Below are positions 1 through 16,855 of a DNA stretch of 25,300 nt, piece by piece. The notes beneath the pieces are model-generated. The model had not been told where the DNA came from and did no database searches. It saw nothing but the letters and a program-made list of their open reading frames with translations. Position numbers and translations under genes: made by a program. The stretch lies in the IMG/VR virus record IMGVR_UViG_3300023109_000125, positions 1 through 25,300 of that record, one strand, 5' to 3'. The DNA is from a virus. How positions within the stretch are numbered: the stretch's first letter is position 1; every line of letters starts with the position of its first letter.

Positions 1-1387
1 TTTGCAACTTCTGCGACTCCCATGAGTAGTATTCCATGTTGGATACATCATCCAGAAGATCTTCAACTTCATCATCATTCTGTGTATCATCTTCATGCTC
101 AAATGTGGAGGCAATCAAGTCTTCTGTGTCAAATGCTCCATTCATTATGGCTCTCTCAAGATCATAATGGTTCAGCGCGTTCTTATCATCACATCCGTCA
201 GCATTTCTGAGGATGTATTCATTGAACTTACTAGCATCGTCTCCAACCTGCGCTTTCTCCAGCAATGCTTTGTTCTGCGCCTTGCTGTATTCAGCGTATC
301 TAGTTGCTTCTGTAAGCTTCCTGTGAATGCCAAACACCAAGGTCTTGGTTTCAACCTTACGCTCTTTACATTGAATATCGCAGAGACTCATTTCCAATCT
401 CACGCCTTTCGCTTCACAGAGATCATCAACTGCTTTCTTTGTGTGCTGATAGTTGGCAAGGCTACCCTTGAAATCAGGGCAGTTCTTCTGAACAATCCGT
501 GCATAGACGAAACTACGCGCTTCTGTGTAGTTTTTCCAAGTGGCAAGCTTGCGCACACCCTTCTCGGTTGTCCAACACTGGTGATAGTCGATTCCAAACT
601 CAGGAATGACGGCTCTTACCAGAAACTCTCCTCGTAGGACAGAGATTATTTCAATGTTCTCTGTTCTCCCACAACGAGTTATGAACTTGTTGAGTAGTTT
701 GTTGTCCTCATAGTGACGTGTGATGATCTTGCCTTTATACTCAATCTTCACTATCCAATAGCTAAGACTTGGCTTCAAAGCTAACCACTCTTTCGTTCTA
801 CGCTCATCTTCTAGCTTGTTCCATATGTCCAGAGACGCTGAATCATCAACGTCAATCCAGTTCAGCTTGTTTTCTGGCGTGTTCAGGATCTCATCTTCGA
901 GATTGCCCGACTTTTCTAGCGTATTATGCTCTTTCTCAGCCAAGTAAGGCTTAGAGACGTATGAAAGCGCCTCACTGACACTCTTTTTGTCTTTTATGCC
1001 ATCCATAGGCACTCCAGCCCTGTCTGCCACCAGCTTTATACTGTCAAGCATGTCTCGACGCTCTTTGTCTGATGGACTAGCTTCTCCAGTGATATACATC
1101 TCAAGCTGACGCTTACCATCATTGGATGGTGTGTATTCTCTTTCTAGCTTCCTTTTCGCCTTCTCTGCCTCGTGGTTAACATCTTCAAGGGCGTTTTCTG
1201 CTTCACAACGCTCTTTGTTTACCATGATTCGTGCTTTTGCTGTATTCACACGACTTTCGCTACCAAGGAGGTTCTCCCTCAATGATCCAAGCTGAAATTC
1301 ATGACTCCCATTACGGTATGGCAATCCATTCAGCTTTGTTTTAAACGGCTGACTAGCAACCCAATTCTTATAACTATTAGTTTTCAT
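1..1387 (-). CDS. Unidentified phage protein, C-terminus cut by the window edge
   Basis: An uninterrupted minus-strand frame runs from an ATG at 1387 to the left edge, giving at least 462 residues with no stop, so the gene is partial at its 3' end. I do not recognise the family. The first 40 residues are polar. Residues of about 50-95 are rich in Lys, Glu and Arg and look like a coiled coil. Later stretches mix ordinary globular sequence (Trp-, Tyr- and Cys-containing, about 220-370) with a very acidic part near the visible end (runs of Asp/Glu after a TFEHEDD motif). No nucleotide-binding or catalytic motif is evident. The leader before the ATG is AT-rich without a Shine-Dalgarno sequence. 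The gene diverges from the terminase small subunit gene, so the two share the 1388-1578 control region. That the frame is real is supported by its length and normal composition. Confidence 0.85.
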   Translation of the reverse strand, partial: MKTNSYKNWVASQPFKTKLNGLPYRNGSHEFQLGSLRENLLGSESRVNTAKARIMVNKERCEAENALEDVNHEAEKAKRKLEREYTPSNDGKRQLEMYITGEASPSDKERRDMLDSIKLVADRAGVPMDGIKDKKSVSEALSYVSKPYLAEKEHNTLEKSGNLEDEILNTPENKLNWIDVDDSASLDIWNKLEDERRTKEWLALKPSLSYWIVKIEYKGKIITRHYEDNKLLNKFITRCGRTENIEIISVLRGEFLVRAVIPEFGIDYHQCWTTEKGVRKLATWKNYTEARSFVYARIVQKNCPDFKGSLANYQHTKKAVDDLCEAKGVRLEMSLCDIQCKERKVETKTLVFGIHRKLTEATRYAEYSKAQNKALLEKAQVGDDASKFNEYILRNADGCDDKNALNHYDLERAIMNGAFDTEDLIASTFEHEDDTQNDDEVEDLLDDVSNMEYYSWESQKLQ

Positions 1388-1578
1388 TTTTGATAATAAT
1401 TTTAGTTTCTGACTACCTTTCAGGGGATAGCCAACCCTTCAACAGGAACATGCATCCAGCATTTCCATATTTAAAAATTTCACCAAGTCCAAGAGGACGA
1501 AGTCCGAGCGCGAAGCGCCAACACAACCATAGAAGCTCTCTTCTTGCATTAAACTACCATTTGTGATTCTATCACCAC
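1388..1578. promoter_or_regulatory. Divergent intergenic region with tandem mini-hairpins
   Basis: This 191-bp spacer lies between two divergently oriented genes and should hold promoters for both, although I see no convincing sigma70 pair. At 1487-1518 three short inverted repeats follow one another: GTCC-AAGA-GGAC, then GGAC-GAA-GTCC sharing the GGAC arm, then GCGC-GAA-GCGC. The first two are mutually exclusive folds because they compete for the same GGAC. They lie about 60 nt upstream of the ATG at 1579 and could fold in its leader RNA. Function is inference only. Confidence 0.4.
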
Positions 1579-2127
1579 ATGAACGAGAACTATAAAGAGA
1601 ACGACAAGGGACTCCCTTACGCCGATTGGAGCGATTTCACCGATTCCACTTGGGAATGCATCAGAGACGACTACGAAGCACACAATTGCTCAATTCAGGA
1701 TGTGGCAGACAACTGGAACATCCCAGCTCCAATTCTTAAAGGCAGAATCAAAAATAACAAATGGCTCACCACCACAAAGGCAAGACAACTAGAAGAACAC
1801 CTAGAAAACAATCCTCTAGAATGTAAAAAACTCTCTTCTCATAGAAATAAAGCTCATCAAGAACTTACACCAGCCGAGAAACTAGTAGTCAAAAAAGCCA
1901 AATCCACTATCGACTACCAATCAGATATCCTCGACATCACACTCAACGCTCTAGCCGAACTAAAGGCAGATGGTGGACTCAAAATTAAGTCGGCTTTCGA
2001 CCTAGAGAAGATAGACGCAGTAGCCAGAAGAACACTCAACCTAGATGACGATCAATCCAAAAATCAAATCATAGACACAAACTTCACTTCAGCTAAACAT
2101 AAACCAGTGATAATCGATGTTGATTAA
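1579..2127 (+). CDS. Probable terminase small subunit
   Basis: The 182-residue product has the size and layout of a phage small terminase, the DNA-recognition subunit that selects phage DNA and hands it to the large terminase for packaging into proheads. Residues of about 36-62 look like a helix-turn-helix (CSIQDVADNWNIP, then a basic helix with KGRIKNNKW), as in families that use a resolvase-like or homeodomain-like fold. A basic stretch follows at about 90-115. The C-terminal third has the pattern of an oligomerisation helix and then LNLDDD, recalling the RxLGLDDD-type ending of many small terminases. No Shine-Dalgarno sequence precedes the ATG. Unusually, the large subunit is about 4.4 kb away, beyond a block of opposite-strand genes. 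The assignment rests on motif pattern, size and the presence of a large terminase nearby; another DNA-binding protein is the alternative. Confidence 0.6.
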   Translation: MNENYKENDKGLPYADWSDFTDSTWECIRDDYEAHNCSIQDVADNWNIPAPILKGRIKNNKWLTTTKARQLEEHLENNPLECKKLSSHRNKAHQELTPAEKLVVKKAKSTIDYQSDILDITLNALAELKADGGLKIKSAFDLEKIDAVARRTLNLDDDQSKNQIIDTNFTSAKHKPVIIDVD

Positions 2128-2174
2128 TTAATCAATTTACAAAATACAAGGGAGCGAAGCGACATATTCGACAA

Positions 2175-2251
2175 ATATCTCAATCAGAAGTCTCATGTTA
2201 AGACTCATATACAAGTCTCAATGAGAAGACTCAATTAGAAGACTCAGTGAC
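2175..2251. repeat. Iteron-like array: six octamers at 12-13 bp spacing
   Basis: Octamers of the form AAG(A/T)CTCA begin at 2188, 2200, 2213, 2226 and 2239, and a degenerate copy ATATCTCA begins at 2175. The steps between starts are 13, 12, 13, 13 and 13 bp. The spacers also share an AATnAG tendency, so the whole unit is about 13 bp. The array starts about 50 bp after the terminase small subunit stop codon and is not coding in any credible frame. Regular short direct repeats of this kind are typical of protein-binding arrays such as replication iterons or terminase recognition sites. The binding protein is unknown. Confidence 0.75.
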
Positions 2252-2263
2252 ATCACCATTCAT

Positions 2264-2316
2264 ATAAGTAATACTTACATAAGTTATAACTCATAAGTTT
2301 ACTTACATAAGTTATA
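2264..2316. repeat. AT-rich overlapping dyads with a 16-bp direct repeat
   Basis: A 16-bp sequence, ACTTACATAAGTTATA, occurs at 2273-2288 and again at 2301-2316. Interleaved with it are the dyads AAGTA-A-TACTT (2266-2276), AGTTATAACT (2282-2291, a perfect palindrome) and TAAGT-TT-ACTTA (2294-2305). The stretch is strongly AT-rich and follows directly on the octamer array. Iterons beside an AT-rich, easily melted segment is the arrangement seen at many iteron-controlled origins, but no test of that is possible here. Confidence 0.65.
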
Positions 2317-2720
2317 CCTTACTTCGCAGCTCAGTCGCTCTCTCCGTTCACTCCTTCGCTACGCTTAGCCTATTCCCGACCCACCACTCGTGTAAAGATC
2401 TTTATTTCAAATACCTCTCTAACGCCCTAATACCAACACTTCTAGACTATACTTTTTTTTAAGCAGTTAGACTCTTTCTGTTAGCATTATCGACTATATT
2501 GCAGTTTGACTCATTCCATATACTCCAAATTTACCCAAATTCCCCAAAATATACAGCTCCAACCACTCCCCGCAATACCCATATTATACCACTCAACACT
2601 CACTCCCATACACCCTTTTTCCTGCTGAGGACTCAATATCCACAAAGAAACCAAGATTTACTCACTTTGCTCATTGTTTTGAGTTGCTCCCGATGCTTGT
2701 GAATGTCGAATCAGGTAACC
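2317..2720. other. Gene-free region with a G-depleted plus strand
   Basis: No convincing gene is present. Visible items are a 12-bp palindrome TAAAGATCTTTA (2393-2404), a run of eight T near 2453-2460, and a near-repeat of GCAGTTAGACTC (2463-2474) as GCAGTTTGACTC (2501-2512). From about 2400 to 2640 the plus strand has almost no G: in 2521-2640 I counted 46 C and 6 G. The only longer frame here (67 residues from 2499) is low-complexity and simply reflects this composition. The leftward operon ends at 2721, and I see no clear intrinsic terminator after it. Confidence 0.6.
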
Positions 2721-3134
2721 TCAATAAACAGAGGGGATCTCGTGCTCGTGCTCCTCTTTTTCGTCGATGTAGTCAGCGATGATGCGCATCTCCTCTGCTG
2801 ATATGCTGTATGCTCCTATGGTGGAGAACATGAATCCTCCTCCGAAAACAGGCTCTAAGCATTTGTAGTATTTGCTTATTACCCGTTGCCTGTGCTCGTC
2901 AGGCATGTTGTTGACATGCTCGTTGGGCTCAGAGTAATCTTCAAGCTCTTTACTGAAGCGTTCCTGCTCGCTCTCAGTAAGCGGCTCAGGGAAGTGCTCA
3001 GGTGGTTTATTATGCTCTAGTCGTGCTTCAGCGCTCCTTGCTCGCTCCCGCCAGTATTTCACGTCGATGTAGGACTGCTCCTCAAGTGCTCTCAGTTTTA
3101 GCGTGAGGCTCGCTATTTTTTGTTTTTTGCTCAT
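2721..3134 (-). CDS. Hypothetical protein, last gene of the leftward cluster
   Basis: This is a 137-residue protein of no recognised family. Residues of about 1-45 are Lys/Arg/Glu-rich and helical with a coiled-coil look (MSKKQKIASLTLKLRALEEQ, then further heptad-like Leu and Ala). A proline- and acid-rich linker (about 42-75) separates this from a C-terminal part with GGGFMFSTIGAYSISAEE and an acidic His-rich tail (EKEEHEHE). There is no signal peptide or membrane segment. The ATG at 3134 follows the previous gene after an 11-nt gap, so co-translation in one operon is likely. The GGGF...ISAEEM segment could be a small folded domain, but I cannot name it. Confidence 0.7.
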   Translation of the reverse strand: MSKKQKIASLTLKLRALEEQSYIDVKYWRERARSAEARLEHNKPPEHFPEPLTESEQERFSKELEDYSEPNEHVNNMPDEHRQRVISKYYKCLEPVFGGGFMFSTIGAYSISAEEMRIIADYIDEKEEHEHEIPSVY

Positions 3135-3145
3135 GGTGATATTAA

Positions 3146-3412
3146 TTATAGTTCTCCGTTAATGATTGCTGCGTAGTCGTCTGCCCATGGATCAGGGTAG
3201 CAGTCTTCCCATGACGGCTCATAATCCCTGCGTGCAGCGTCACGCTCGTTTTCCTGCTCAGCCATCTTGGAATGGCCCAGCAAGATTTGTGCTTCCTCCC
3301 TGATGCTCTCAGGGGTGCCTTGGTAGTAATACTCAATAAACCCTGAGGCGTCTTGAGTGGTGTTACAGCAGCTCAGTGCGTCGTCTGCTATTTGTTGTGG
3401 TGTCTTGCTCAT
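3146..3412 (-). CDS. Hypothetical small acidic protein
   Basis: This 88-residue protein is not recognised. It begins MSKTPQQIADDALSCC, with an adjacent Cys pair at about 14-15, then Tyr-rich and Glu-rich helical sequence. It ends with an acidic, aromatic segment (SWEDCYPDPWADDYAA). A second frame starting at 3336 is internal and is a shadow. The leader is CA-rich (CCAACCAACTAATACC before the ATG), with no Shine-Dalgarno sequence. Upstream lies the large dyad at 3430-3490; downstream the next gene starts 11 nt after the stop. The acidic pI and small size fit an early phage protein acting by binding a host protein, but that is conjecture. Confidence 0.7.
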   Translation of the reverse strand: MSKTPQQIADDALSCCNTTQDASGFIEYYYQGTPESIREEAQILLGHSKMAEQENERDAARRDYEPSWEDCYPDPWADDYAAIINGEL

Positions 3413-3429
3413 GGTATTAGTTGGTTGGT

Positions 3430-3490
3430 GGCTAAAGAAGCTCCAGAACGCTGTGGGGGCGCTCCAGAGCTTCCCTGCGGCTTCTTAGCC
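3430..3490. other. 61-bp nested inverted repeat between two leftward genes
   Basis: Outer arms GGCTAAAGAAGC (3430-3441) and GCTTCTTAGCC (3480-3490) are complementary apart from one bulged A. An alternative inner pairing joins GAAGCTC (3437-3443) to GAGCTTC (near 3467-3473) with extra pairs toward the loop. On the minus strand the inner hairpin is followed by CTTTAG rather than a long T run. It overlaps the last codons of the gene ending at 3485 and precedes the gene starting at 3412. It could be a weak terminator, a processing site or a translation-control element. Confidence 0.6.
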
Positions 3491-3856
3491 AAAGCATACG
3501 ATGGAGAACGGCACGGTGTAACCCTTGGTAGCAGGGCTTCCAAACTCCACCTTGCTCCCATTAGGAGAGGTGGCGCGGTTCTTCCAAGGTGCGATGAGAC
3601 GCTCATGGATGAGGTCCGCTGCGGCAGCCCTGTAGCCTTTGGAGCCATTGGGGGCTTTGCGCTTGGAAGCGCGGAGATGGTTGATTTGAGTCAACCTGAT
3701 GCTCTCAGATAGAGAGCTGTCTACCTTGAAGTAGTAATACTTGAAGTAGATTTGAATCTGAACCTCGCCAGCTTTCACTGGACGCTTTGCTTCAGGTTTA
3801 GATGCACGGGCGGCTTTGGCTCCTTGGTTATCGGTGGCCTTTGTTTTTGCACTCAC
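3485..3856 (-). CDS. Hypothetical basic protein with a Lys/Ala-rich N-terminus, GTG start
   Basis: This is a 123-residue basic protein of no recognised family. The first 28 residues are Lys/Ala/Thr-rich and probably disordered, suited to nucleic-acid contact. A compact segment follows with an aromatic strand (QIQIYFKYYYFKV), a helix with SIRLTQINHLRASKRK, and another helix ending in IHERLIAPWKNR. The start codon is GTG at 3856: an in-frame stop lies just upstream and no ATG precedes the conserved-looking sequence. The stop overlaps the outer arm of the dyad at 3430-3490. The gene sits in a series of small same-strand genes, with a 78-nt hairpin-containing gap before it. A DNA- or RNA-binding role is plausible from charge alone. 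Confidence 0.6.
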   Translation of the reverse strand: MSAKTKATDNQGAKAARASKPEAKRPVKAGEVQIQIYFKYYYFKVDSSLSESIRLTQINHLRASKRKAPNGSKGYRAAAADLIHERLIAPWKNRATSPNGSKVEFGSPATKGYTVPFSIVCFG

Positions 3857-3870
3857 AATATCAGTGGTGT

Positions 3871-3920
3871 TCTGTCATTGGAATTAACGACAGACTTCAG
3901 CCCTCCCCTCGTGAGGAGAG
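3871..3920. other. Two intergenic hairpins upstream of the gene at 3856
   Basis: TCTGTC (3871-3876) and GACAGA (3889-3894) form a 6-bp stem around a 12-nt loop. Next to it, 3903-3920 forms CTC-C-CCTC / GAGG-A-GAG with a two-base loop and one mismatch. Neither is followed by a T run on the minus strand. The 6-bp/12-nt geometry is the same as in the repeated stop-proximal hairpins at 4848 and 5465, although the sequence differs. Confidence 0.5.
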
Positions 3921-3934
3921 CTGTAGGTCTATGG

Positions 3935-4204
3935 TTACAAGTTGGCGTGGAGATACTGAGCCGTTTTGCTATACTTCACCACGAAGCCGTGGGAGCATAA
4001 GCATCCGCAGCAGTCGTGTTCATGAAAGCAACGATCAACCTTCACCTTGAGGTGAGTGTTTCCATCTTGGTCGATAAGTTCACTCTCGATGTTGTGCTTT
4101 TGCTTAATCTCGGCAATCACCTCAGCTTCAGTGCCAAGGTTCTTGAAGAAAAAAGCGGCGGTTCCGTATTCGGTGTCTTGACCGATTGGTTCTAGCGTTT
4201 TCAT
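3935..4204 (-). CDS. Hypothetical protein with a Cys/His cluster
   Basis: This 89-residue protein carries eight Cys/His within 14 residues (C59, H61, H63, C65, C66, C68, C70, H72; sequence CFHEHDCCGCLCSH). Such density suggests metal binding, probably zinc, or a redox-active cluster. The N-terminal part looks like a small alpha/beta unit (FFFKNLGTEAEVIAEIKQKH) and strands with LKVKV precede the cluster. A HDCC-type motif also occurs in short uncharacterised phage proteins, as I recall. The ATG at 4204 lies 4 nt after the preceding stop, so the two are translationally linked. No catalytic assignment is possible. Confidence 0.75.
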   Translation of the reverse strand: MKTLEPIGQDTEYGTAAFFFKNLGTEAEVIAEIKQKHNIESELIDQDGNTHLKVKVDRCFHEHDCCGCLCSHGFVVKYSKTAQYLHANL

Positions 4205-4208
4205 TGGT

Positions 4209-4460
4209 TTAGTGGTTGTGACGCTCGTAGTGAGCGTCGTTATACATTATCTCCTCGTCGGAGAGTGGTGTGTTCTTCATGGGGATGAACTCATTGTTTG
4301 AGTCCAATAGTTTCCTGAGTCTATCCTGCCCCTCAATGGAGAGGCGGGACATTACCGAGGAGAGAGGATCACCGAAGTTCTCCTCAATGACGCTGTCATC
4401 CTTTTTGGTAGGATTCCAGCTTTGGTCTATGAGCTTTTCCAGCTCGTTTGGGTTTGTCAT
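4209..4460 (-). CDS. Hypothetical small acidic protein
   Basis: This 83-residue protein starts MTNPNELEKLIDQSWNPT. The ATG at 4460 was chosen over an upstream in-frame ATG at 4541 because that extension would lie inside the preceding gene. With this start the ATGA overlaps the preceding stop by 4 nt, the usual sign of translational coupling. The product is acidic and mainly helical (SVMSRLSIEGQDRLRKLLDS), ending in a His-rich tail (YERHNH). The family is not recognised. Confidence 0.7.
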   Translation of the reverse strand: MTNPNELEKLIDQSWNPTKKDDSVIEENFGDPLSSVMSRLSIEGQDRLRKLLDSNNEFIPMKNTPLSDEEIMYNDAHYERHNH

Positions 4461-4672
4461 TGGTTTGTTTGGTTGGTTGGGATGTAACGCTCCCAGAACG
4501 TGTTCAGTGGGACTTTGAAGGTAACACTGTATGCTGCCCACAAGCGCACATGCGTTCTATTAAAATCAAGGACTTTTAGGCGTTGCCGTGTCCTTAGATT
4601 GATCACCCATCCTGAGACAGGTGTGCTAGGGCTGTCATCAGCCTTAGCAATTAGTTCGTCTAGGTTACTCAT
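4457..4672 (-). CDS. Hypothetical protein
   Basis: This 71-residue protein begins MSNLDELIAKADDSPSTP. The body (VSGWVINLRTRQRLKVLDFN, then HVRLWAAYSVTFKVPL) looks like a small beta-rich fold of about 45 residues. The family is not recognised. It overlaps the upstream membrane peptide gene by 8 nt and the downstream gene by 4 nt (ATGA), so the three genes 4838 to 4209 form a tightly coupled unit. The leader before the ATG lies wholly inside the upstream gene and contains AAAGGA about 12 nt before it, a possible weak ribosome site. Confidence 0.7.
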   Translation of the reverse strand: MSNLDELIAKADDSPSTPVSGWVINLRTRQRLKVLDFNRTHVRLWAAYSVTFKVPLNTFWERYIPTNQTNQ

Positions 4673-4838
4673 CTGAGTATCCTTTCATAGTGCCGTAGCA
4701 CCTGTAATAAGAGCCCCTGTCACGGAGCTCTTTTTGTTGCTCTTGATTAGCTTCTAAGCCGTCAAGAGCCTTGCCTATGAAGGTTGTTAATAACCCTAGT
4801 GTGGCGAGCACTAGAGCAACCTTTATTGTGTTTTTCAT
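4665..4838 (-). CDS. Small single-span membrane peptide (57 residues)
   Basis: A short ATG frame at 4838 encodes 57 residues. Residues of about 4-24 are a hydrophobic helix (TIKVALVLATLGLLTTFIGK) preceded by Met-Lys-Asn, which fits an N-in or signal-anchor membrane segment. The rest is polar: a helical EANQEQQKELRDRG stretch and a Tyr/Cys-containing end (SYYRCYGTMKGY). There is no signal-peptidase motif of the usual AxA type. The gene fills an otherwise empty gap exactly, overlaps the next gene by 8 nt and follows the repeated hairpin at 4848-4876 by about 10 nt, so it is very probably real. Small phage membrane peptides include holins, superinfection-exclusion factors and spanin-like proteins. 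Nothing here decides among them, and no lysis gene is adjacent. Confidence 0.65.
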   Translation of the reverse strand: MKNTIKVALVLATLGLLTTFIGKALDGLEANQEQQKELRDRGSYYRCYGTMKGYSDE

Positions 4839-4847
4839 GATAGAATA

Positions 4848-4876
4848 TGAGCAGTTTAGACACTTGCTCAGGTGTG
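4848..4876 (-). repeat. Stop-proximal hairpin repeat, copy A
   Basis: A 29-nt sequence begins 6 nt after the stop codon of the gene ending at 4883 (minus strand). Arms TGAGCA and TGCTCA form a 6-bp stem around an 11-nt loop. It matches copy B at 5465-5494 almost base for base, including the loop, apart from one or two bases. There is no downstream T run, so it is not a standard intrinsic terminator. It also lies in the leader of the membrane peptide gene. Confidence 0.75.
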
Positions 4877-4882
4877 TTGTAA

Positions 4883-5314
4883 TTAAGCTTTAGCGATCAG
4901 AGCTTTAGCCTCTTCAAGCGATATACTAATCTCTCGACCAGATCGGGTGATTTGGTCTTCATTCATGTCCTGCCCCCGATGGGACAGAAACGAGAGGAGG
5001 AATGCCTCCTCTTTTAAGGTGAAAGTGTAAGCTTCCCACACTGATGCGATCTCACTCTCCTCCTTTCTCTGGAGGGTTTTATATCTAGCTGTTGACGAAT
5101 CCATAATCTCTCCGTCATCTACACGCTCCGAGACTCTCCTTGCCCTATCTTCATAAAAGCTGTGAATATGATTCCCTTCTCTCCCTAACTGATCAGCCGT
5201 GAGCTTCATCTTGTTGTAAATAGCCTCTAGGCTATCCCACACAGCCTCCCACTTAGCAGGAGTCTCATTTAGGGCGTCAAGGATCATTTCTGCGTTTTCT
5301 TTGTATGTGTTCAT
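4883..5314 (-). CDS. Hypothetical helical protein
   Basis: This 143-residue protein is almost entirely charged helix: MNTYKENAEMILDALNETPA, then AVWDSLEAIYNKMKLTADQL, a His-containing basic middle (HIHSFYEDRARRVSERV) and a C-terminal segment ISISLEEAKALIAKA. The pattern suggests an all-alpha or coiled-coil fold; no family was recognised. There is no membrane segment or Cys cluster. The ATG at 5314 follows an unusually structured 185-nt intergenic region, and the stop is followed 6 nt later by the repeated hairpin. This may therefore be a separately controlled transcription or processing unit within the cluster. Confidence 0.75.
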   Translation of the reverse strand: MNTYKENAEMILDALNETPAKWEAVWDSLEAIYNKMKLTADQLGREGNHIHSFYEDRARRVSERVDDGEIMDSSTARYKTLQRKEESEIASVWEAYTFTLKEEAFLLSFLSHRGQDMNEDQITRSGREISISLEEAKALIAKA

Positions 5315-5347
5315 AATAGTAAGTAGACATTATGGTTTCTGAACCCC

Positions 5348-5453
5348 TTAGCTAAACTGTAGCTGGAACAGGACAATTTACGTGCATTGCACAGATATGT
5401 AGTAGTCTTCTACATTACAATCGAACTCCGATTGATGGCATTCTAGAACGCCA
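5348..5453. other. Dyad-dense intergenic segment
   Basis: Within about 105 bp lie TTAGCTAA (5348-5355), GTGCA-T-TGCAC (5382-5392), TGTAG-N7-CTACA (5398-5414), AATCG-N5-CGATT (5419-5433) and an 18-bp near-palindrome TGGC-A-TTCTAGAA-C-GCCA (5436-5453). All are non-overlapping and back to back, and the hairpin repeat at 5465 follows. No frame longer than a few codons crosses it. This could be a structured leader RNA, a small RNA, an operator cluster or an origin element. Confidence 0.6.
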
Positions 5454-5464
5454 GAAGGAGAAGG

Positions 5465-5494
5465 TGAGCAGTTTAGACACTATGCTCAGGTGTG
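5465..5494 (-). repeat. Stop-proximal hairpin repeat, copy B
   Basis: This is a second copy of the 4848-4876 element, lying 5 nt after the stop of the gene ending at 5500. TGAGCA (5465-5470) pairs with TGCTCA (5483-5488) around a 12-nt loop. The loop bases are conserved with copy A except for one inserted base. It is followed on the minus strand by a pyrimidine-rich stretch (CCTTCTCCTTCT) rather than by a T run. Confidence 0.75.
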
Positions 5495-5499
5495 ATTGT

Positions 5500-5739
5500 T
5501 TACTTGAGGCTGTCTTCAAGAAAACAGATTTCTGCCTCCTTGTTGTTCAGCCACATCTGGTGGAACTCGGACCATCCTCCTGTGAGGATGACCAGCTCCT
5601 TATTCACCTCTACCGAGGTGAGCCCTGCCTCAATAGTGAGGCGTTGTAGGAGCTTTAGCTCCTGATATTTCACCACCTCAAGCTTGAGGGTGGCGATCTC
5701 CATTTGGGTCTTTACGACCTCTTTGTCATACGTTTTCAT
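5500..5739 (-). CDS. Hypothetical small coiled-coil protein
   Basis: This 79-residue protein starts MKTYDKEVVKTQMEIATLKL. Residues of about 5-40 have heptad-like spacing of Leu, Ile and Val among Lys and Glu, which fits a coiled coil. The second half has GGWSEFHQMWLNNKEAE and ends in an acidic helix. The ATG at 5739 was preferred to an in-frame ATG at 5778 because the latter falls inside the conserved leader repeat. With 5739 the repeat-to-start distance (17 nt) matches that of the gene at 6154 (18 nt). It is flanked by the leader hairpin upstream and the stop-proximal hairpin downstream. The family is not recognised. Confidence 0.7.
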   Translation of the reverse strand: MKTYDKEVVKTQMEIATLKLEVVKYQELKLLQRLTIEAGLTSVEVNKELVILTGGWSEFHQMWLNNKEAEICFLEDSLK

Positions 5740-5756
5740 ATGTATTATGGTGTTGT

Positions 5757-5813
5757 GGTTAATGTATGTGAACAGCAAGAGCGCTGATACATACAGAGCT
5801 GTTTAATACAATG
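5757..5813 (-). promoter_or_regulatory. Conserved leader hairpin repeat, copy 1
   Basis: A 57-nt element ends 17 nt before the ATG at 5739. Paired arms are TGTATGT (5763-5769) with ACATACA (5789-5795), and inside them CAGC (5773-5776) with GCTG (5783-5786), closing a 6-nt loop. Copy 2 at 6173-6229 has the same two stems and internal loop but a different apical loop. It could be an RNA hairpin in the 5' leader or a DNA operator/promoter module; no clear -10/-35 pair is visible. Confidence 0.75.
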
Positions 5814-5902
5814 AGACATCCACTCTGCATTTACACGGGCTTGTGACCGTCATAGGCTGCATTAGATGGCATGTTGGTGTCGCAGTCATGCTCTGCGGTT
5901 GG

Positions 5903-6154
5903 CTATGCAAGCAGCAAGTCCATCTCCTTGGTTAACTCAAGGAGTAATGCTTTAGCGGCTTCATGCTCCCTTATATGGGCGTCACGTAAGGCATCAAGAC
6001 GAGCTAAATTCATTACACCATTAGGCAAGCGTGGTGTGCTGCCTACATCCATGATGTATCGGCTACCTATCTTAGAGATCATTGATCTCACTGAGTCAGC
6101 CTGTTCGATTAGCTGCCTGCTTCTTATGTGCTTATGCATTGCTGGGTTGTTCAT
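5903..6154 (-). CDS. Hypothetical protein, first gene of the leftward cluster
   Basis: This 83-residue protein starts MNNPAMHKHIRSRQLIEQAD at the ATG at 6154. A longer reading from 6280 would run through the leader repeat and a CA microsatellite and has an implausible Cys-rich start, so I reject it. The body is helical (SVRSMISKIGSRYIMDVG) and the C-terminus is a Leu/Glu-rich amphipathic helix (EHEAAKALLLELTKEMDLLL) that could mediate dimerisation. A GSTPRLPNGVM loop lies in the middle. The family is not recognised. The leader is CA-rich (CCAACAACCAATACAATACA). As the promoter-proximal gene of the operon it is likely to be expressed early. Confidence 0.7.
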   Translation of the reverse strand: MNNPAMHKHIRSRQLIEQADSVRSMISKIGSRYIMDVGSTPRLPNGVMNLARLDALRDAHIREHEAAKALLLELTKEMDLLLA

Positions 6155-6172
6155 TGTATTGTATTGGTTGTT

Positions 6173-6229
6173 GGTTAATGTATGTGAACAGCAAGGATAG
6201 CTGATACATACAGAGCTATGAATACAATG
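6173..6229 (-). promoter_or_regulatory. Conserved leader hairpin repeat, copy 2
   Basis: This is the second 57-nt copy, ending 18 nt before the ATG at 6154. Arms TGTATGT (6179-6185) and ACATACA (6206-6212), then CAGC (6189-6192) and GCTG (6200-6203), enclose a 7-nt loop whose sequence differs from copy 1. Identity to copy 1 is high outside the loop. The element precedes the first gene of the leftward cluster. Confidence 0.75.
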
Positions 6230-6296
6230 GACAGACAGAGGACAGGCAAGCAGACAACAGCACACACACAGACAGCACACACAGACAGCGTAGAGA
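6230..6296. repeat. CA/GACAG simple-sequence tract
   Basis: A low-complexity run of ACAGACAG, CACACACA and related units lies just upstream (minus sense) of the leader repeat. It is purine/C-biased on the plus strand with almost no T. It may have arisen by slippage. No gene function is implied, and it inflates a spurious longer reading of the gene at 5903-6154. Confidence 0.7.
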
Positions 6297-6546
6297 ACTG
6301 AAGGGGCGGCGGGTGTCTTGCTTGGGGGACATCCTACACCGAGCTACCATGAACCTACTATGGAACTATGTGGGTTTTTATTTTGCCAAAGCGACTTTGT
6401 GGAAAAGAGTGTGGGGGGAAATGTGTGAGAGGGTTTGTTTTGGGATGAAAAATAAAATTCATGTATATAAAGGCGGTTTATTTTGTGTTGTTTAGAAATC
6501 GCAAAAAAAAATCGTTCCCTGAAGGGAATTGTGGTAGGGGTTGTTT
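6297..6546. promoter_or_regulatory. Control region upstream of the large terminase gene
   Basis: This gene-free stretch (apart from a doubtful 60-codon GTG frame) should carry the rightward promoter. The best candidate is TTGGGA (6440-6445) and TATATA (6464-6469) with an 18-bp spacer, a poor -35 with a fair -10. From about 6400 the plus strand becomes strongly G/T-rich. AGGGG at 6536-6540 with a 6-nt gap is a plausible ribosome site for the ATG at 6547. Confidence 0.4.
6502..6528 (-). terminator. Candidate leftward intrinsic terminator before the large terminase gene
   Basis: On the minus strand the palindrome TTCCCT-TC-AGGGAA (6515-6528) is followed after three bases (CGA) by nine T residues (plus-strand A run at 6502-6511). 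This is the hairpin-plus-U-tract form of an intrinsic terminator, though with a short stem. It would stop antisense transcripts coming back across the large terminase gene before they enter the leftward operon. Confidence 0.5.
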
Positions 6547-8472
6547 ATGAGTAATTTGAATGCTGGTAAGGGCGTGGCTGGTTTGTATGAGTGGGAGAGT
6601 TCTTATTTTCCTGTTCCTGATGGTGTTATGGTGGATGAGTTTCATATGGAGTGGGAGGGGAAGTTGTGGGATGTGCGTATTTTTGGGGAGATGGAGAGGA
6701 ATTTGTATATGTTGGCGATGGCGTATTTTGATGAGGGGGAGGGTGGGAAGTTGCTTTTGAAGCCTGAGTATGATGATAGTAAGGGGGGTAGTTGGCCTAG
6801 TGGTGAGGAGTTGTTTGTTTATTTTAAGAGGGTGGTGGATTTGTTGTGGAATGAGAATGGGAAGAGCACGAGGAAGGTTATATGGAATGAGTGGTGTGAG
6901 AGGATGATGGTGGGGATGTTGGGGAATAGGTATTGTGCTTTGGCTGGGTGTGCGTCTTCTGGGAAGAGTGATGCGATGGCTGTTTATGCTATAGTGATGT
7001 ATTTGTGTTGGCCTCAGAAGACGAAGGTTATTGCCACCTCTACGACTATGAAGATGGCTAAGATGCGTATATGGAGGAGTGTGAATGAGTTGTGGCAGAA
7101 GGATTTTCCCGGAAAGATGGTTTATAGTGACTGTGTTATTAAAGGGGTTAATATGGATGGGGACTTAACTGAGGACACTGGGGTGTTGTTGATGCCTGCT
7201 GCTGGTGGTGCTGGTCAGGAGATTGACAGTAACTTTTTGGGTTTGAAGCAGGAGAGGTTTTTTACGATGTTGGATGAGCTTTCTGAGTTGCCTGTGAGTG
7301 TGGTTAATGGTTGTTATAGTAACCTTAGTAATAATACGTGGTTTGAGATGAAGGCGGCTAGTAACCCCAATAGTTATCATGATGCGTTTGGTGTGTTTTG
7401 TAAGCCTATGAATGGTTGGGCTAGTGTGAGTGAGCTTAACATGGAGTGGGAGACATCTAGGGGTATTTGTTTAAGGTTTGATAGTGAGAAGAGTCCTAAT
7501 ATGAAGGCGGGGAGGGTGATATACCCTTGGTTGCCTAAAGAGAGGGATATTAATCATGCTCGGCGTGAGTTTGGTGAGAGGAGTAGGTATTTCTTTCGGA
7601 TGTATAAGGCTTTTTGGTTTTCTGGGAGTAGTGATGAGACTGTGTTTAATGAGGGTGAAGTAATGAAGGGCAGGGCTGACACGCCTGTTGACAAGAGCGA
7701 GATAGACAAGGGGAGTAGAGAGGAGTTGGTTTTGGCTGGTGATCCTGCTTTCACTCAGGGAGGAGACAGGTTTCCTTTGATTAAAGGCCGTGTTGTTAAG
7801 ATTGATGGTAAGAGCGTTTTGGAGGTTACGGATCTGGATATTATAAAAGACGATATTGATAATGAGGATGTGAGCAGGAGTTATAGCTCTATTCGATACA
7901 TTCGTGAGCGTTGTGTTAAGGAGGGTATTCCAGCTAGTCATTTTGCGTTTGATATGACTGGGGCGGGTATTCCTTTTAGGGACATTGTTGTGAGTGAATG
8001 GAGTAGTTTGCCTATGGGGGTTATGTTTGGGGGGAAGGCTAGTGAGCTTCCTATTAGTCCTATTGATCCTAGACTTGCCAGCGAGGTTTATGCTAATAGG
8101 GTTACTGAGTTGTGGGCTAGGTGTAAGGGGTTGATACGTGAAGGAAGGATTAGGGGTCTTACGAGTGAGATTGTTCAGGAGCTTTGTCAAAGGCAGTGGG
8201 ATGAGATGCGGGGGGCTAAATTAAAAGTCGAGAGCAAGAAGTTGATGAAGCTGAGGACGGGTAAGAGCCCCGACATTGCTGACACTTTAATTATTTTGGT
8301 TGAGCTTTGCGTTAAGCTTGGATTGCTTGGAGAGATGGAAAACGTTGATGTTGACGAGTCTTCTAAGGAGGTCTGGTCGAAGTCATATGAGTCTATTGAC
8401 AGTGATGCTTGGGACGATACAGGTCTTTCTTGGGGAGGCGGTGGTGGAGGCGATATGGATTTAGAGTGGTAG
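6547..8472 (+). CDS. Terminase large subunit (packaging ATPase and nuclease)
   Basis: This 641-residue motor protein drives DNA into the prohead and cuts the concatemer. The N-terminal ATPase domain has a Walker A motif at about 134-141 (GCASSGKS), followed by a coupling-type segment, and a Walker B motif at about 238-244 (FFTMLDE) with the catalytic Glu. The C-terminal RNase H-like nuclease domain begins with LVLAGDPAFTQGGD, continues with a FAFDMTGAG strand and ends with SPDIADTL, supplying the usual acidic metal ligands. The tail is Gly- and acid-rich (GGGGGGDMDLEW). I start at the ATG at 6547, with AGGGG 6 nt upstream, rather than at an in-frame TTG two codons earlier. Codon use is extreme: TTG for Leu, AGG for Arg, and third positions that avoid C. 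In 6541-6660 I counted 44 G and 9 C, unlike the genes downstream. Confidence 0.93.
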   Translation: MSNLNAGKGVAGLYEWESSYFPVPDGVMVDEFHMEWEGKLWDVRIFGEMERNLYMLAMAYFDEGEGGKLLLKPEYDDSKGGSWPSGEELFVYFKRVVDLLWNENGKSTRKVIWNEWCERMMVGMLGNRYCALAGCASSGKSDAMAVYAIVMYLCWPQKTKVIATSTTMKMAKMRIWRSVNELWQKDFPGKMVYSDCVIKGVNMDGDLTEDTGVLLMPAAGGAGQEIDSNFLGLKQERFFTMLDELSELPVSVVNGCYSNLSNNTWFEMKAASNPNSYHDAFGVFCKPMNGWASVSELNMEWETSRGICLRFDSEKSPNMKAGRVIYPWLPKERDINHARREFGERSRYFFRMYKAFWFSGSSDETVFNEGEVMKGRADTPVDKSEIDKGSREELVLAGDPAFTQGGDRFPLIKGRVVKIDGKSVLEVTDLDIIKDDIDNEDVSRSYSSIRYIRERCVKEGIPASHFAFDMTGAGIPFRDIVVSEWSSLPMGVMFGGKASELPISPIDPRLASEVYANRVTELWARCKGLIREGRIRGLTSEIVQELCQRQWDEMRGAKLKVESKKLMKLRTGKSPDIADTLIILVELCVKLGLLGEMENVDVDESSKEVWSKSYESIDSDAWDDTGLSWGGGGGGDMDLEW

Positions 8473-9641: not shown

Positions 9642-11990
9642 ATGAAAGATACAGAAGAGGTTGGTGATGTTGAGTTTCAAGAAAAAGGAGAGCGCCTAAA
9701 GAGCGTAGACCAAGCTAGGGCAATTGTTAATCGTTTAGCTGAAGATGATCGGCCATCTGAGCGAAACAGGGCGAAGGTTCAAGATTTGCATGACTTTAAA
9801 CCTCCTCTTAACAGCGCTATGCTTTCCCGTAGCGGTCAAAAGGGTCGCTTTAATATCAACTTTGGTGATTTAGCTCGTGCCGTTGGTGAGGCAGAGACTT
9901 CTTTTATTGATGGTTTTGAAAGCCCTGAACATCTTGTTCCCATTAAACTGAATCGCGGGTCATACGCCCCTGAGGAAAAACAGCAGTTTGAGCGCATTAT
10001 GTCTGATGAGTTTACTAAGCTGATCAGAAGTTGGGACGGCGGTTTCTTTAATTACGGTCTATTGGTTAATCAATTTCTGCTTCAAGGGGTGGGCATTGGT
10101 TTTTTTGAGGACAAATATACATGGCAATGGCAAGGCGCTGGTCTTCGTGAGTTTAAGTTTCCTCGAAAAACAAAGGCTCATTGTGATTCAGTTGAGATGA
10201 CATCTTGTGATGGTCAGATTGGCAGATCTAGACTTGCTGACATTCTTGAAAACGAGCAGGCTGCAGTAGACATGGGTTGGAATCCAAGTGCTATAAGGGC
10301 TGCCTTGAAGGGCGGGTATGAAGACCAGCTTTATGAAGACGACAACGCTGAGGATTCTCAAGAGAAAAGCAAAGCGAACGACTTGGATGACGAGGCTGGT
10401 AGCTTTCATCCCATTAACGTAAGTTATATGTGGGTGAGGGAGAATGACGGCACGGTTAGCTATTATATTTTTACGAAGAACTCTAAATCTAATGATTTTG
10501 AAGATTCTGATGCTGGATCTGGTGATGGGTTTCTTTATAAGAGATTGAATGCTTATGATAACATTGGTCAGGCTTTACAGATATTTCCTTACAATACAGG
10601 CACTAAAGGTAACATCTACACTATTAGAGCTATAGGTTTTCAGCTTTACCCTCAGGTTATGGCTAAGAACTTGATGCAGAGTGCTGAGCTTGATGCTTCT
10701 ATTGATGGAATGAGGACTAAATATCGCGCTCCTTCTGAGAAAGAGATTAATTCGATGCCTTTCTTGAATGCTGGCCCTGCACAGTTTGTTCCTAATCAGT
10801 ATATTGCCATTAAGGATCAGCACACTCCAGATTTAACTAAGATTGCATCACCAGTCATTGATCGTTTAGATATGCAATTAGCGGCTAAGAGCGCATCTAG
10901 CTCTATGTCTAGCGTGTTTAATAATAAGCAAGACAGACGATCAAGCTTGGAGGTTGGAAGCGCTCTTGAGCATTTCAACAGCCTTAATGATGGTGCTCGG
11001 TTGTTATTTTCACGACCTTGGCGATCATTGATGTCTGAGAGTTGCGTAAGAGCTTTTGCTGAGATTATTGACGAAACAACCGATTGTGGGCGAATGGCTA
11101 TGGTCATGCAGAAAGCCTGCATTGATCAAGGTGTCCCCGCTGAGGCTTTTGGCATGATAGACAGACATGAAACCAGAACCAGCATTCCTGTTGGCGCTGG
11201 CAGTAAAGCTGCTCGTAGTGCTGAGTTTGAGTCTGGAGCAACCCTTTATCAGGAGATGGATGATGTTGGTCGCGCCAACTTTAATAAGGACAGGGCAATA
11301 CACGGGTTTGGCGTTCAAAACGCTAAGCGTTACTTAAACTTTGAAGATCGTCCTCGTGAGATTATTGATGTGAGGTTTGCTATTCTTGAGAATAACGACC
11401 TAATGGAGGGAACATGGATTGAGCCTAGCAATAGTGAAGTTCACATTGTCCACCTTAGAGAACACATTAAGCCTATGGAGGAAGCTATTCAGGCTGTCGA
11501 AGAGGGTCAATTAGAACTTATTGACTTTACTAATAGGATGGAGGTTGTTTATGAACACGCCGTTGCGACCATTAAACTTACCGCTGTTCCCGATGAGCAG
11601 AATGATGAACTTAATATGTATGAACAAAAGATTCAGCAGATTGGTGAATACCTCAATAACGGCATCAGGGAGCGAGAGAAGATGCAGCGTGAGCAAGCTG
11701 AACAAGAAGCTCAGATGCAAGCTCAAGGCGCTCAGGAGGGAGCTGGTGATCCAGCAGCGGAGGCTAAAGCACAAGTTGAGCAGATGAAGTTGCAAGTGAA
11801 GGAGGCTGAGGCACAGATTGCCATTGAGCGCAAGCAGACAGAGAACATGCTGGATGCTGAGAAGAAGTCTCGTGAGATTGCTCACATTGACATGCTTCAT
11901 AAGCAGAAGTTGATTCAGAATCAGGAAGAGAGCCTGCAGAAGATGAAGTTGGCTGATGCTGATACGGCGAGCAAGATCAAGAGAAGCTAA
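9642..11990 (+). CDS. Portal protein (head-tail connector)
   Basis: This 782-residue protein follows the terminase and precedes the scaffold and capsid genes, the standard portal position. It would form the dodecameric ring at one capsid vertex through which DNA enters. The length suits the large portals of podovirus-type phages. The N-terminal portion has a globular alpha/beta region with GGFFNYGLLVNQFLLQGVGI (about 130), typical of the portal wing/clip core. The part from about 350 to 560 is rich in helices and SSSMSSVFNNKQDRRSS-type linkers. From about 655 to the end the protein is a continuous Gln/Glu/Ala/Lys coiled coil (EREKMQREQAEQEAQMQAQ and onward), matching the C-terminal barrel or crown helix of portals such as that of P22. 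The ATG is preceded by TAAAATATT, without a Shine-Dalgarno sequence. Assignment rests on synteny, size and the coiled-coil end; I could not recognise a named portal family. Confidence 0.8.
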   Translation: MKDTEEVGDVEFQEKGERLKSVDQARAIVNRLAEDDRPSERNRAKVQDLHDFKPPLNSAMLSRSGQKGRFNINFGDLARAVGEAETSFIDGFESPEHLVPIKLNRGSYAPEEKQQFERIMSDEFTKLIRSWDGGFFNYGLLVNQFLLQGVGIGFFEDKYTWQWQGAGLREFKFPRKTKAHCDSVEMTSCDGQIGRSRLADILENEQAAVDMGWNPSAIRAALKGGYEDQLYEDDNAEDSQEKSKANDLDDEAGSFHPINVSYMWVRENDGTVSYYIFTKNSKSNDFEDSDAGSGDGFLYKRLNAYDNIGQALQIFPYNTGTKGNIYTIRAIGFQLYPQVMAKNLMQSAELDASIDGMRTKYRAPSEKEINSMPFLNAGPAQFVPNQYIAIKDQHTPDLTKIASPVIDRLDMQLAAKSASSSMSSVFNNKQDRRSSLEVGSALEHFNSLNDGARLLFSRPWRSLMSESCVRAFAEIIDETTDCGRMAMVMQKACIDQGVPAEAFGMIDRHETRTSIPVGAGSKAARSAEFESGATLYQEMDDVGRANFNKDRAIHGFGVQNAKRYLNFEDRPREIIDVRFAILENNDLMEGTWIEPSNSEVHIVHLREHIKPMEEAIQAVEEGQLELIDFTNRMEVVYEHAVATIKLTAVPDEQNDELNMYEQKIQQIGEYLNNGIREREKMQREQAEQEAQMQAQGAQEGAGDPAAEAKAQVEQMKLQVKEAEAQIAIERKQTENMLDAEKKSREIAHIDMLHKQKLIQNQEESLQKMKLADADTASKIKRS

Positions 11991-15256: not shown

Positions 15257-16855
15257 ATGGCACATCCCGACCCCCTTCCACATAAAACCGATACAGATTC
15301 TGATATTTTAGAGAAGATAACCGACAACCTTGGTGGTGACGCTAAGTGGATTGATTCTTTGCAATCAAAGAAAGCCTTGGCCGCTAAATCTATTCTTGGT
15401 AAACTTTCAGAGCTTGAGGCAAGGCGAGACGCAGAACCTATTGACTCATCTAAGTCATACTCAGAGGGTGAGATCGTCTATGCAGAAGGTGCTTCGTGGC
15501 GTGTTGCTGCAGGTGGTGCTAATGCTGGAGATCTTCCTTCGACCCATCCAGACAAGTTTGTATCCTTTCAAGAGGGTGTAACCTCTATCGCCAACAAAGA
15601 AGCCGCCTATGCCCTGACAGGTGTGGCAGTCGGCACGGTTTATAAGACCGAGGACACGGGGCAGATCATGGAATACATGGGGAAGCGTAATGCTGGAATC
15701 TCTGACGTTCTATACATTGATACCGACTATCTTTTCAACACTCTACCAGCAGGTGATAATCCCAGCCTGACTGTTCGCGGATACTACCATCGTCGCCCTA
15801 CCAAAAACAATTTAGACACACGACCTAGTTTCGTTAGAGACGATGGAGCTATATTGTTTTCAGCTAACGGAGATGTGTGGGACTTAGGACACAACGATGG
15901 TGGGGGTCTTTACATTCACTCTGAATACAATCCTGACCCAACGGATATTGTTGGCACTTCATGGAATAATTATGGTGGCATGTCTAACCACCCGCAAACT
16001 ATTGCTTTCAGCGACTTTCCAGAAATGTATCCTAACAACTGGAAACACGATGGTGTTCTCCTAGTCAATGACAACGACGAGAAACAACTCCTGACCAACC
16101 TACCAGACGATCAGCAGGTTAAGATCGTTGTCGAGGGTGGACGCATTGAGCAACTACCACCATCACCACTACCAGACATTAAACGTGGCTTTATTATCTC
16201 TGATGCTGGCAATCCAAGAAGTTCTGTTTCCGACGGAGGTTACGCTCTTTCTGGTGCCTATTTCTGGCATGAGACTGATGGTCAGTTTGTCAGGGATGAT
16301 AATGGGAGTTATTATAATGCTTATTTTTACCATGATGGCTTTAGGTGGCAAATAGGCTACCAGATGGGCTACTTTTTTCAATCAGACCTGTGTGCCTCTA
16401 CTGTTCACCCTGCTGACGCTACGGGATGGACTGCCTATGACGCTTGGGGCGCGGGCATTGGTCAAGGAACGATAGCTGATGGTGGATTGGTTAAGACACG
16501 CGCATGTGAAGTCTACAATTCACCACAGTCTAAAACATCAGGAAATACCCCGTGGTTCACGATCAAGAACACGGTTGAACTAACATGGCATGACGATTGG
16601 TATTCTGGCGATCAGACTATTAACGGTATTTTAGCACCCGAAGGAACCCCAACTAACGTAGGATGGGTTCCCGTGGGGGAGCGTATACAAGGCACTAATG
16701 CGTCAACCGACAACTTCACTTGGACAACAACCGTCATCAATGGCATTGGGCCTAATACCCAAGTCTTTCCCAAGATGGTCTTGCTAACAGATGCAGGGAT
16801 ATTAATTCCAGATGGCTTCCCGAGCGGGGCGGCTATTACCGTCAAATCCTCTTGA
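15257..16855 (+). CDS. Probable tail fibre or receptor-binding protein
   Basis: This 532-residue protein has a helical N-terminus (about 1-60) and then a short carbohydrate-binding-module-like unit at about 65-105 (YSEGEIVYAEGASWRVAAGG), with the Tyr-x-x-Gly-x-x-Val...Trp spacing seen in chitin-binding type repeats. Residues of about 112-135 (AYALTGVAVGTVYKTEDTGQ) match a unit common in phage fibre and decoration proteins. The remainder is aromatic-, Gly- and Asp-rich beta sequence suited to a receptor-binding tip. It ends with tandem stops (TGA TAA). It is paired with a small fibre-chaperone-like gene downstream, which supports a fibre role. Composition is more C-rich than in the flanking genes, suggesting separate acquisition. 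A head decoration protein is the alternative, since it lies right after the capsid gene. Confidence 0.6.
   Translation: MAHPDPLPHKTDTDSDILEKITDNLGGDAKWIDSLQSKKALAAKSILGKLSELEARRDAEPIDSSKSYSEGEIVYAEGASWRVAAGGANAGDLPSTHPDKFVSFQEGVTSIANKEAAYALTGVAVGTVYKTEDTGQIMEYMGKRNAGISDVLYIDTDYLFNTLPAGDNPSLTVRGYYHRRPTKNNLDTRPSFVRDDGAILFSANGDVWDLGHNDGGGLYIHSEYNPDPTDIVGTSWNNYGGMSNHPQTIAFSDFPEMYPNNWKHDGVLLVNDNDEKQLLTNLPDDQQVKIVVEGGRIEQLPPSPLPDIKRGFIISDAGNPRSSVSDGGYALSGAYFWHETDGQFVRDDNGSYYNAYFYHDGFRWQIGYQMGYFFQSDLCASTVHPADATGWTAYDAWGAGIGQGTIADGGLVKTRACEVYNSPQSKTSGNTPWFTIKNTVELTWHDDWYSGDQTINGILAPEGTPTNVGWVPVGERIQGTNASTDNFTWTTTVINGIGPNTQVFPKMVLLTDAGILIPDGFPSGAAITVKSS

Follow-up and report, generated by a model that had tools for sequence, protein, structure and literature searches.

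Among described phage loci, replication origins and packaging sites come closest to the repeat array analysed here. In SPP1, the origin oriR combines direct repeats with an AT-rich unwinding element in non-coding DNA away from the initiator gene, and the segment that carries it, together with moron genes, interrupts the late genes (PMC6316719). The origins of lambdoid phages hold iterons next to an AT-rich tract, four of them in lambda and six in Stx phages (PMC7466680). The packaging (pac) sites of SPP1 and SF6, which cover the promoter and start of the small terminase gene, terS, likewise hold direct repeats near that gene and contain boxes of three kinds (PMC4737164); the boxA repeats of SPP1 are missing from SF6, though the small terminase subunits (TerS) of these phages are exchangeable (PMC4737164, PMC9611059). 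In TerS rings, helix-turn-helix (HTH) domains lie about one helical turn apart on a circumference of ~300 Å, and wrapped segments of ~100 bp have been proposed (PMC4737164).

The locus described here comes from an uncultured phage and lies in a linear fragment of 25.3 kb, which is an entire IMG/VR record and is referred to below as the window. Its only close relative in IMG/VR, IMGVR_UViG_3300021957_000115 (38 kb), shares ~97% identity with it in this region and is called the ~97% relative. The array is an iteron-like element of known form; what is new is the lineage that carries it, the octamer of which it is built and its place directly after terS. With SPP1 oriR (and oriL) it has in common direct repeats beside a candidate AT-rich unwinding element in non-coding DNA, and with SPP1 also a phage-borne DnaB-type helicase and loader (PMC6316719), seen here in the ~97% relative. 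For SPP1, however, origin melting belongs to an established reaction with a known initiator, whereas both melting and initiator are putative in the candidate origin here. As in lambda and Stx phages, iteron-like repeats are followed by an AT-rich tract and their number differs between relatives (PMC7466680), but the lambdoid iterons lie inside the initiator gene O, while the units here are octamers spaced 12-13 bp apart in non-coding DNA beside terS. Unlike the pac sites of SPP1 and SF6, the array iterates one octamer, lies downstream of terS and is followed by an AT-rich element.

A regular octamer array in non-coding DNA

The array occupies positions 2175 to 2246 on the plus strand. It comprises five exact copies of AAG(A/T)CTCA (AAGWCTCA), starting at 2188, 2200, 2213, 2226 and 2239, and one degenerate copy, ATATCTCA, at 2175, which has two mismatches to this octamer. 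Successive starts are 13, 12, 13, 13 and 13 bp apart. An earlier reading of the letters without database searches (the sequence-only reading) had located all of these sites correctly to the base; its description of a six-copy array stands in that there are six sites 12-13 bp apart, but five are exact and one is degenerate, so they are not six equal copies. Tandem Repeats Finder reports the feature at 2179-2250 with a period of 13 (5.6 copies) and also with a period of 26.

This regularity exceeds chance. When 7-mers with at most one mismatch and 11-15 bp apart were linked into chains and the longest chain was counted, the array gave a chain of 5 copies. Among 1000 dinucleotide-preserving shuffles of the 593-bp block that holds the array, the best chain had 4 copies, a length reached once, and 5 copies appeared in 0 of 1000; shuffles of the whole window (n=60) likewise gave a best chain of 4, reached once. 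The array is also the sole cluster of at least three octamer sites (at most one mismatch) within 30 bp in the window, as it is in the ~97% relative, and outside it AAGWCTCA occurs in both phages only a few times and always singly.

The surrounding non-coding block (2128-2720) separates two genes that converge on it, one on the plus strand with its end at 2127 and one on the minus strand with its end at 2721. This agrees with the earlier description of a non-coding array about 50 bp beyond the 1579-2127 gene, the measured distance being 47 bp past the stop codon. An iteron origin would be expected to have several direct repeats of a single site at regular spacing, either in non-coding DNA or within the initiator gene, and the array shows such repeats. 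Leaving aside the array and the AT-rich element, the block is about as conserved against the ~97% relative as coding DNA. An identical run of 283 bp within it was considered as an exceptional feature and rejected, because runs in coding DNA reach 293-338 bp.

Two copies of GCAGTT(A/T)GACTC(T/A)TTC, 38 bp apart at 2463-2516 on the plus strand, contain outlying GACTC cores and are both unaltered in the ~97% relative; they weakly suggest further sites. The outlying GACTC cores at 2470, 2508 and 2630 are only suggestive as extra sites, since two-mismatch octamer matches in the block (20, array included) are not far above the window average (11).

An AT-rich element adjoins the array

Immediately to the right of the array lies an AT-rich element (2262-2316) with a ~14-bp repeat (ATAAGT...TTAC...), a candidate unwinding element. 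The segment 2262-2311 is 80% A+T, and by nearest-neighbour stability no other 50-bp stretch of the 25.3-kb window is as unstable as the one starting at 2262. This minimum begins 16 bp past the last octamer, which bears out the earlier remark that an AT-rich segment follows the array, and it favours a role in replication. The adjacent, easily melted element of an iteron origin is thus present in the window and weaker in the ~97% relative, where the element is 29 bp shorter and the matching segment falls within the least stable 2%.

The neighbouring gene probably encodes the small terminase

The plus-strand gene at 1579-2127 encodes a protein with an N-terminal HTH, a helical middle and an xDxxxxDxxARRxxxLD-type motif. 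Among curated families, no terminase small subunit matched the protein directly. Distant members of the group were reached through their portal and large terminase genes, and the nearest of them, IMGVR_UViG_3300023281_001622 (L067), encodes a homologue (43% identity over the C-terminal 89 residues, E 5e-14) in the same place and on the same strand. The L067 homologue matches PHROG 1206, terminase small subunit, with an E of 3e-5, and another homologue (L024) matches it weakly (E 0.055). With homologues from eight further records the family alignment comes to 11 sequences, which share the N-terminal HTH and, in their C-terminal half, a conserved motif.

Predicted without relatives, the structure was unusable (pLDDT 44). 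A model from nine sequences gave block means of mostly 76-89 pLDDT for the HTH, while the remainder was all-helical and poorly determined (pLDDT mostly 60 or below). Fold searches with this model returned resemblance to trihelical HTH domains; they found HTH proteins and singled out no terminase, which does not exclude one. Given the L067 homologue at the same place and its match to PHROG 1206, the gene probably encodes a small terminase, an identity reached by homology rather than by direct match. The earlier label of probable small terminase is upheld to this extent, although not by any direct database match.

The divergent non-coding region before terS (1388-1578) contains a 34-bp element at 1489-1522 with two short hairpins (GGACGAAGTCC and GCGCGAAGCGC). 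Two more exact copies of it are present elsewhere in the ~97% relative (L003:3166-3199 and 3278-3311), 112 bp apart.

Gene setting and lineage

An island of small minus-strand genes (2721-6280) separates terS from the large terminase gene, terL, on the plus strand at 6541-8472 (PHROG 2, E 4e-12; alignment A1). The island is variable: several of its genes are replaced in the ~97% relative, and L067 has an analogous island. At its start, 6263-6289, lies a perfect 13-bp tandem repeat, CACACACAGACAG. The order after the island is terL at 6541, a putative portal gene at 9642 and a putative capsid gene at 13907, the last two named from size and gene order as curated families gave no good match; a baseplate wedge protein and a DUF4815 protein are also encoded after terL. 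TerL, portal and capsid have no match among 50,697 phage records, and no relative of TerL was found in 84,980 bacterial and archaeal species genomes, searched for hosts and proviruses.

The array in a close relative

The ~97% relative has the same array plus one 13-bp unit (AAGACTCAATCAG), so that the comparison of copy number in relatives proposed in the sequence-only reading did reveal a difference. Its array also has one A-to-T change, at the toggling core position. Across the six distinct exact units of the two phages, seven core positions are invariant and position 4 is A or T, and the 4-5 bp spacers vary between units. Because the cores are fixed except for this A/T toggle while the spacers vary, a sequence-specific protein probably reads the octamer core. 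Fixed cores with varying spacers point to a bound site under selection rather than to plain duplication, and unequal exchange would account for the change in the number of units.

In the ~97% relative, adjoining genes encode a DnaB-family helicase (Pfam E 2.5e-39) and a DnaD-like loader (L017:15627-16241; PHROG E 1e-6). No iteron array was found in or near these two genes, and the other short-period arrays that the chain scan detected in this phage have periods that are multiples of 3 and lie inside one ORF. No initiator was recognised among the genes scanned of the window and the ~97% relative, both of which are incomplete genomes.

Elsewhere in the ~97% relative, an ORF of ~52 tandem 12-bp repeats (L017:6010-6765) encodes a G-N/D-H-x-rich repeat protein. 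Near-identity between the two phages stops at 15672 of the window, inside ORF 15257-16855, and beyond this point they differ as if tail or adhesin genes had been swapped.

Arrays in more distant relatives

The TerL, portal and capsid of L067 are 52%, 47% and 49% identical to those of the window, and a capsid scan for intermediate relatives returned only the two already known. An array scan for 7-mers spaced 10-16 bp covered nine further group members. Three non-coding arrays were found in L067, all within the terS-terL interval, with the motifs CAGTGTC, ATGCATTGCCGTC and ACTAAAG. One is a composite of CAGTGTC and ATGCAT(TGCCGTC) units in 13-bp steps, and within ~45 bp of it lies a segment among the least stable 0.13% of L067; another consists of five ACTAAAG copies, 12-14 bp apart, in a divergent promoter-type region. 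Thus the L067 arrays resemble that of the window in having ~13-bp direct repeats, an AT-rich neighbour, the same interval and homologous TerS, TerL, portal and capsid, but differ in motif and in lying 1.5-3 kb from terS. Arrays are located in L067 at 4035-4200 and 5401-5460, and the latter opens with a near-palindrome, CGTAACTAAAGTTACG.

The same scan found no comparable array beside terS in the more distant group members. In nearly all of their chains the period is divisible by three, as it is in coding repeats; one four-copy chain whose period is not so divisible (G008, 34070) is far from the terS of its genome. Arrays in the terS-terL interval recur, then, in the two nearest lineages and are not general. 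The sequence-only reading had counted absence of the array from relatives against itself: the ~97% relative has the array with one unit more, whereas more distant relatives are without a comparable one. The co-location of arrays in the terS-terL interval is only moderate evidence, because a large share of the non-coding DNA seen in these phages falls there. When IMG/VR was scanned for TGAGWCTT sites, three in tandem, six other contigs were returned; their sites lie in near-perfect simple repeats, some apparently coding, and the contigs have no visible relation to the phage.

Strand composition

Cumulative GC skew reaches its minimum at 3310 in the window and at 22006 in the ~97% relative, about 1 kb to the right of the array. 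GC skew as the mark of a simple bidirectional origin was rejected after per-gene analysis of third positions, which revealed a reversed segment of only ~3 kb: third-position skew is reversed only from ~18.5 to 21.7 kb of the ~97% relative (window 1-2720), and the remaining left arm of that genome has the same skew sign as the right arm. L067 has no skew minimum and no reversal. The skew minimum near the array lends weak support to an origin.

Throughout window 1-2720, strand composition is opposite to that of most of the 38-kb relative, whatever the gene direction. The third-position GC skew of terS, a plus-strand gene, is -0.53, against the direction of the gene, compared with +0.71 for terL. 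Third-codon-position asymmetry in terL (6541-8472) is extreme, with an AT skew of -0.77 beside this GC skew; it fades along the next genes, is identical in the ~97% relative and is mild in L067.

A candidate replication origin

The array most likely represents iterons, that is, five to seven tandem sites of one sequence-specific protein. We tentatively favour the reading that the array and the AT-rich element together form a replication origin, to which we give somewhat less than an even chance. A phage initiator would load onto the AAG(A/T)CTCA sites; sites ~13 bp apart would face successively different sides of the helix, so that the complex would wrap or bend the DNA. Strain from this wrapping could then melt the AT-rich element at 2262-2316, allowing the DnaD-like loader and the DnaB helicase to enter and theta replication to begin. 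In this scheme the initiator is putative, and its binding, the melting and the start of replication are inferred. What speaks for the scheme is the array with its fixed cores, the stability minimum beside it, the DnaB and DnaD-like genes of the ~97% relative, the variation in copy number and the precedent of SPP1 oriR. Further points in its favour are the lack of any iteron array in or near the DnaB and DnaD-like genes and the 13-bp-period array of L067 with its unstable neighbour.

Several observations weigh against an origin. No initiator gene was recognised in the genes scanned, the AT-rich element of the ~97% relative has lost 29 bp and ranks only within the least stable 2%, and a high A+T content is usual for intergenic DNA. 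Skew does not follow the pattern of a simple bidirectional origin, and L067 has no skew minimum. Neither the sequence nor the position of the array is conserved in L067, and no comparable array lies beside terS in the more distant relatives. The position of the array next to terS, moreover, would also be explained by a packaging site. Of the two identities put forward in the sequence-only reading, replication iterons and a terminase recognition site, the supports named for each, an AT-rich neighbour and a probable small terminase gene, have both held up, while the array proved not to be conserved in distant relatives.

Packaging and other alternatives

The packaging site is the strongest of the alternatives, though on balance unlikely: a TerS ring would bind the octamers by successive HTHs, wrap the DNA and bring TerL for the first pac cut. 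Such sites lie in or beside the small terminase gene, and the array is 47 bp past the stop codon of the probable terS; in SPP1, the pac site contains direct repeats and extends across the start of terS (PMC4737164). The N-terminal domain of the probable TerS here is predicted to be a helical HTH, and seven sites at 13 bp would span ~90 bp, of the same order as the proposed ~100-bp wrap. Contigs of the group cross the interval unbroken, and one relative is cut inside late genes, which would fit permuted headful genomes. In three phages the contig passes through the interval, making cos or a terminal repeat less likely as a fixed end there; this argument concerns fixed ends, not pac. On the other hand, the binding of DNA by TerS in pac phages is weak and depends little on sequence (PMC4737164, PMC9611059), whereas the cores here are strictly kept. 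The known sites of SPP1 and P22 lie within terS or at its start, whereas the array follows the gene. In L067 only 3 bp, and no array, separate terS from the next gene, and the arrays of that phage are 1.5-3 kb off and of other motifs. A packaging site would also leave the AT-rich element without a role. A stricter form, in which one HTH of the TerS ring would sit on each 13-bp unit in register and DNA would be wrapped by sequence-specific contacts at every subunit, appears rather improbable.

We consider it doubtful that the array consists of operators, sites for a phage regulator of transcription through the block, for example of leftward read-through from the island or of a hidden promoter. 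Short direct repeat arrays are common operators, the five ACTAAAG copies of L067 lie in a divergent promoter-type region, and promoter-like matches were found overlapping the array as well as its right flank (2247-2275 on the plus strand, 2201-2174 on the minus strand). These matches, however, occur at the chance rate (8 found against 8.5 expected), the convergent genes that flank the block leave no gene start in need of a promoter, and no folded RNA was detected (z -0.2 and -0.5).

There is little to recommend a functionless tandem repeat produced by slippage. Copy number does differ by one between the close relatives, and the AT-rich repeat has also changed length, but a neutral array would diverge evenly, whereas the cores here are invariant apart from the A/T toggle and the spacers have diverged; the rest of the block, besides, is about as conserved as coding DNA.

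The centromeres of TubR, ParR and omega systems are short direct repeat arrays beside the gene of a small HTH binding protein, and the array does adjoin an HTH gene, but a partition or other DNA-anchoring site with iterons of this type is very improbable, as that gene is a terminase homologue and no ParM, ParA or TubZ gene was found among the tested proteins of the window and the ~97% relative. An RNA element was rejected, as folding of either strand is no better than that of shuffled sequences (z -0.2 and -0.5) and there is no Rfam match; no tRNA was found. A methylation switch (GANTC, CcrM) was dropped: AAGACTCA has GANTC and AAGTCTCA is without it, and the 104 GANTC sites present are no enrichment over the 94 expected.

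Implications for the lineage

The array marks a likely control site, either a replication origin or a packaging start, in a lineage whose TerL, portal and capsid are without a match among the 50,697 phage records. If its reader is the small terminase, the array would provide clean, repeated, sequence-specific terminase contacts of a kind lacking so far for pac phages, and an in-register site, if true, would amount to a ruler-like pac and would directly answer the debated question of DNA recognition by TerS. If the reader is instead a replication protein, the locus would be another origin set among packaging genes, as in SPP1.
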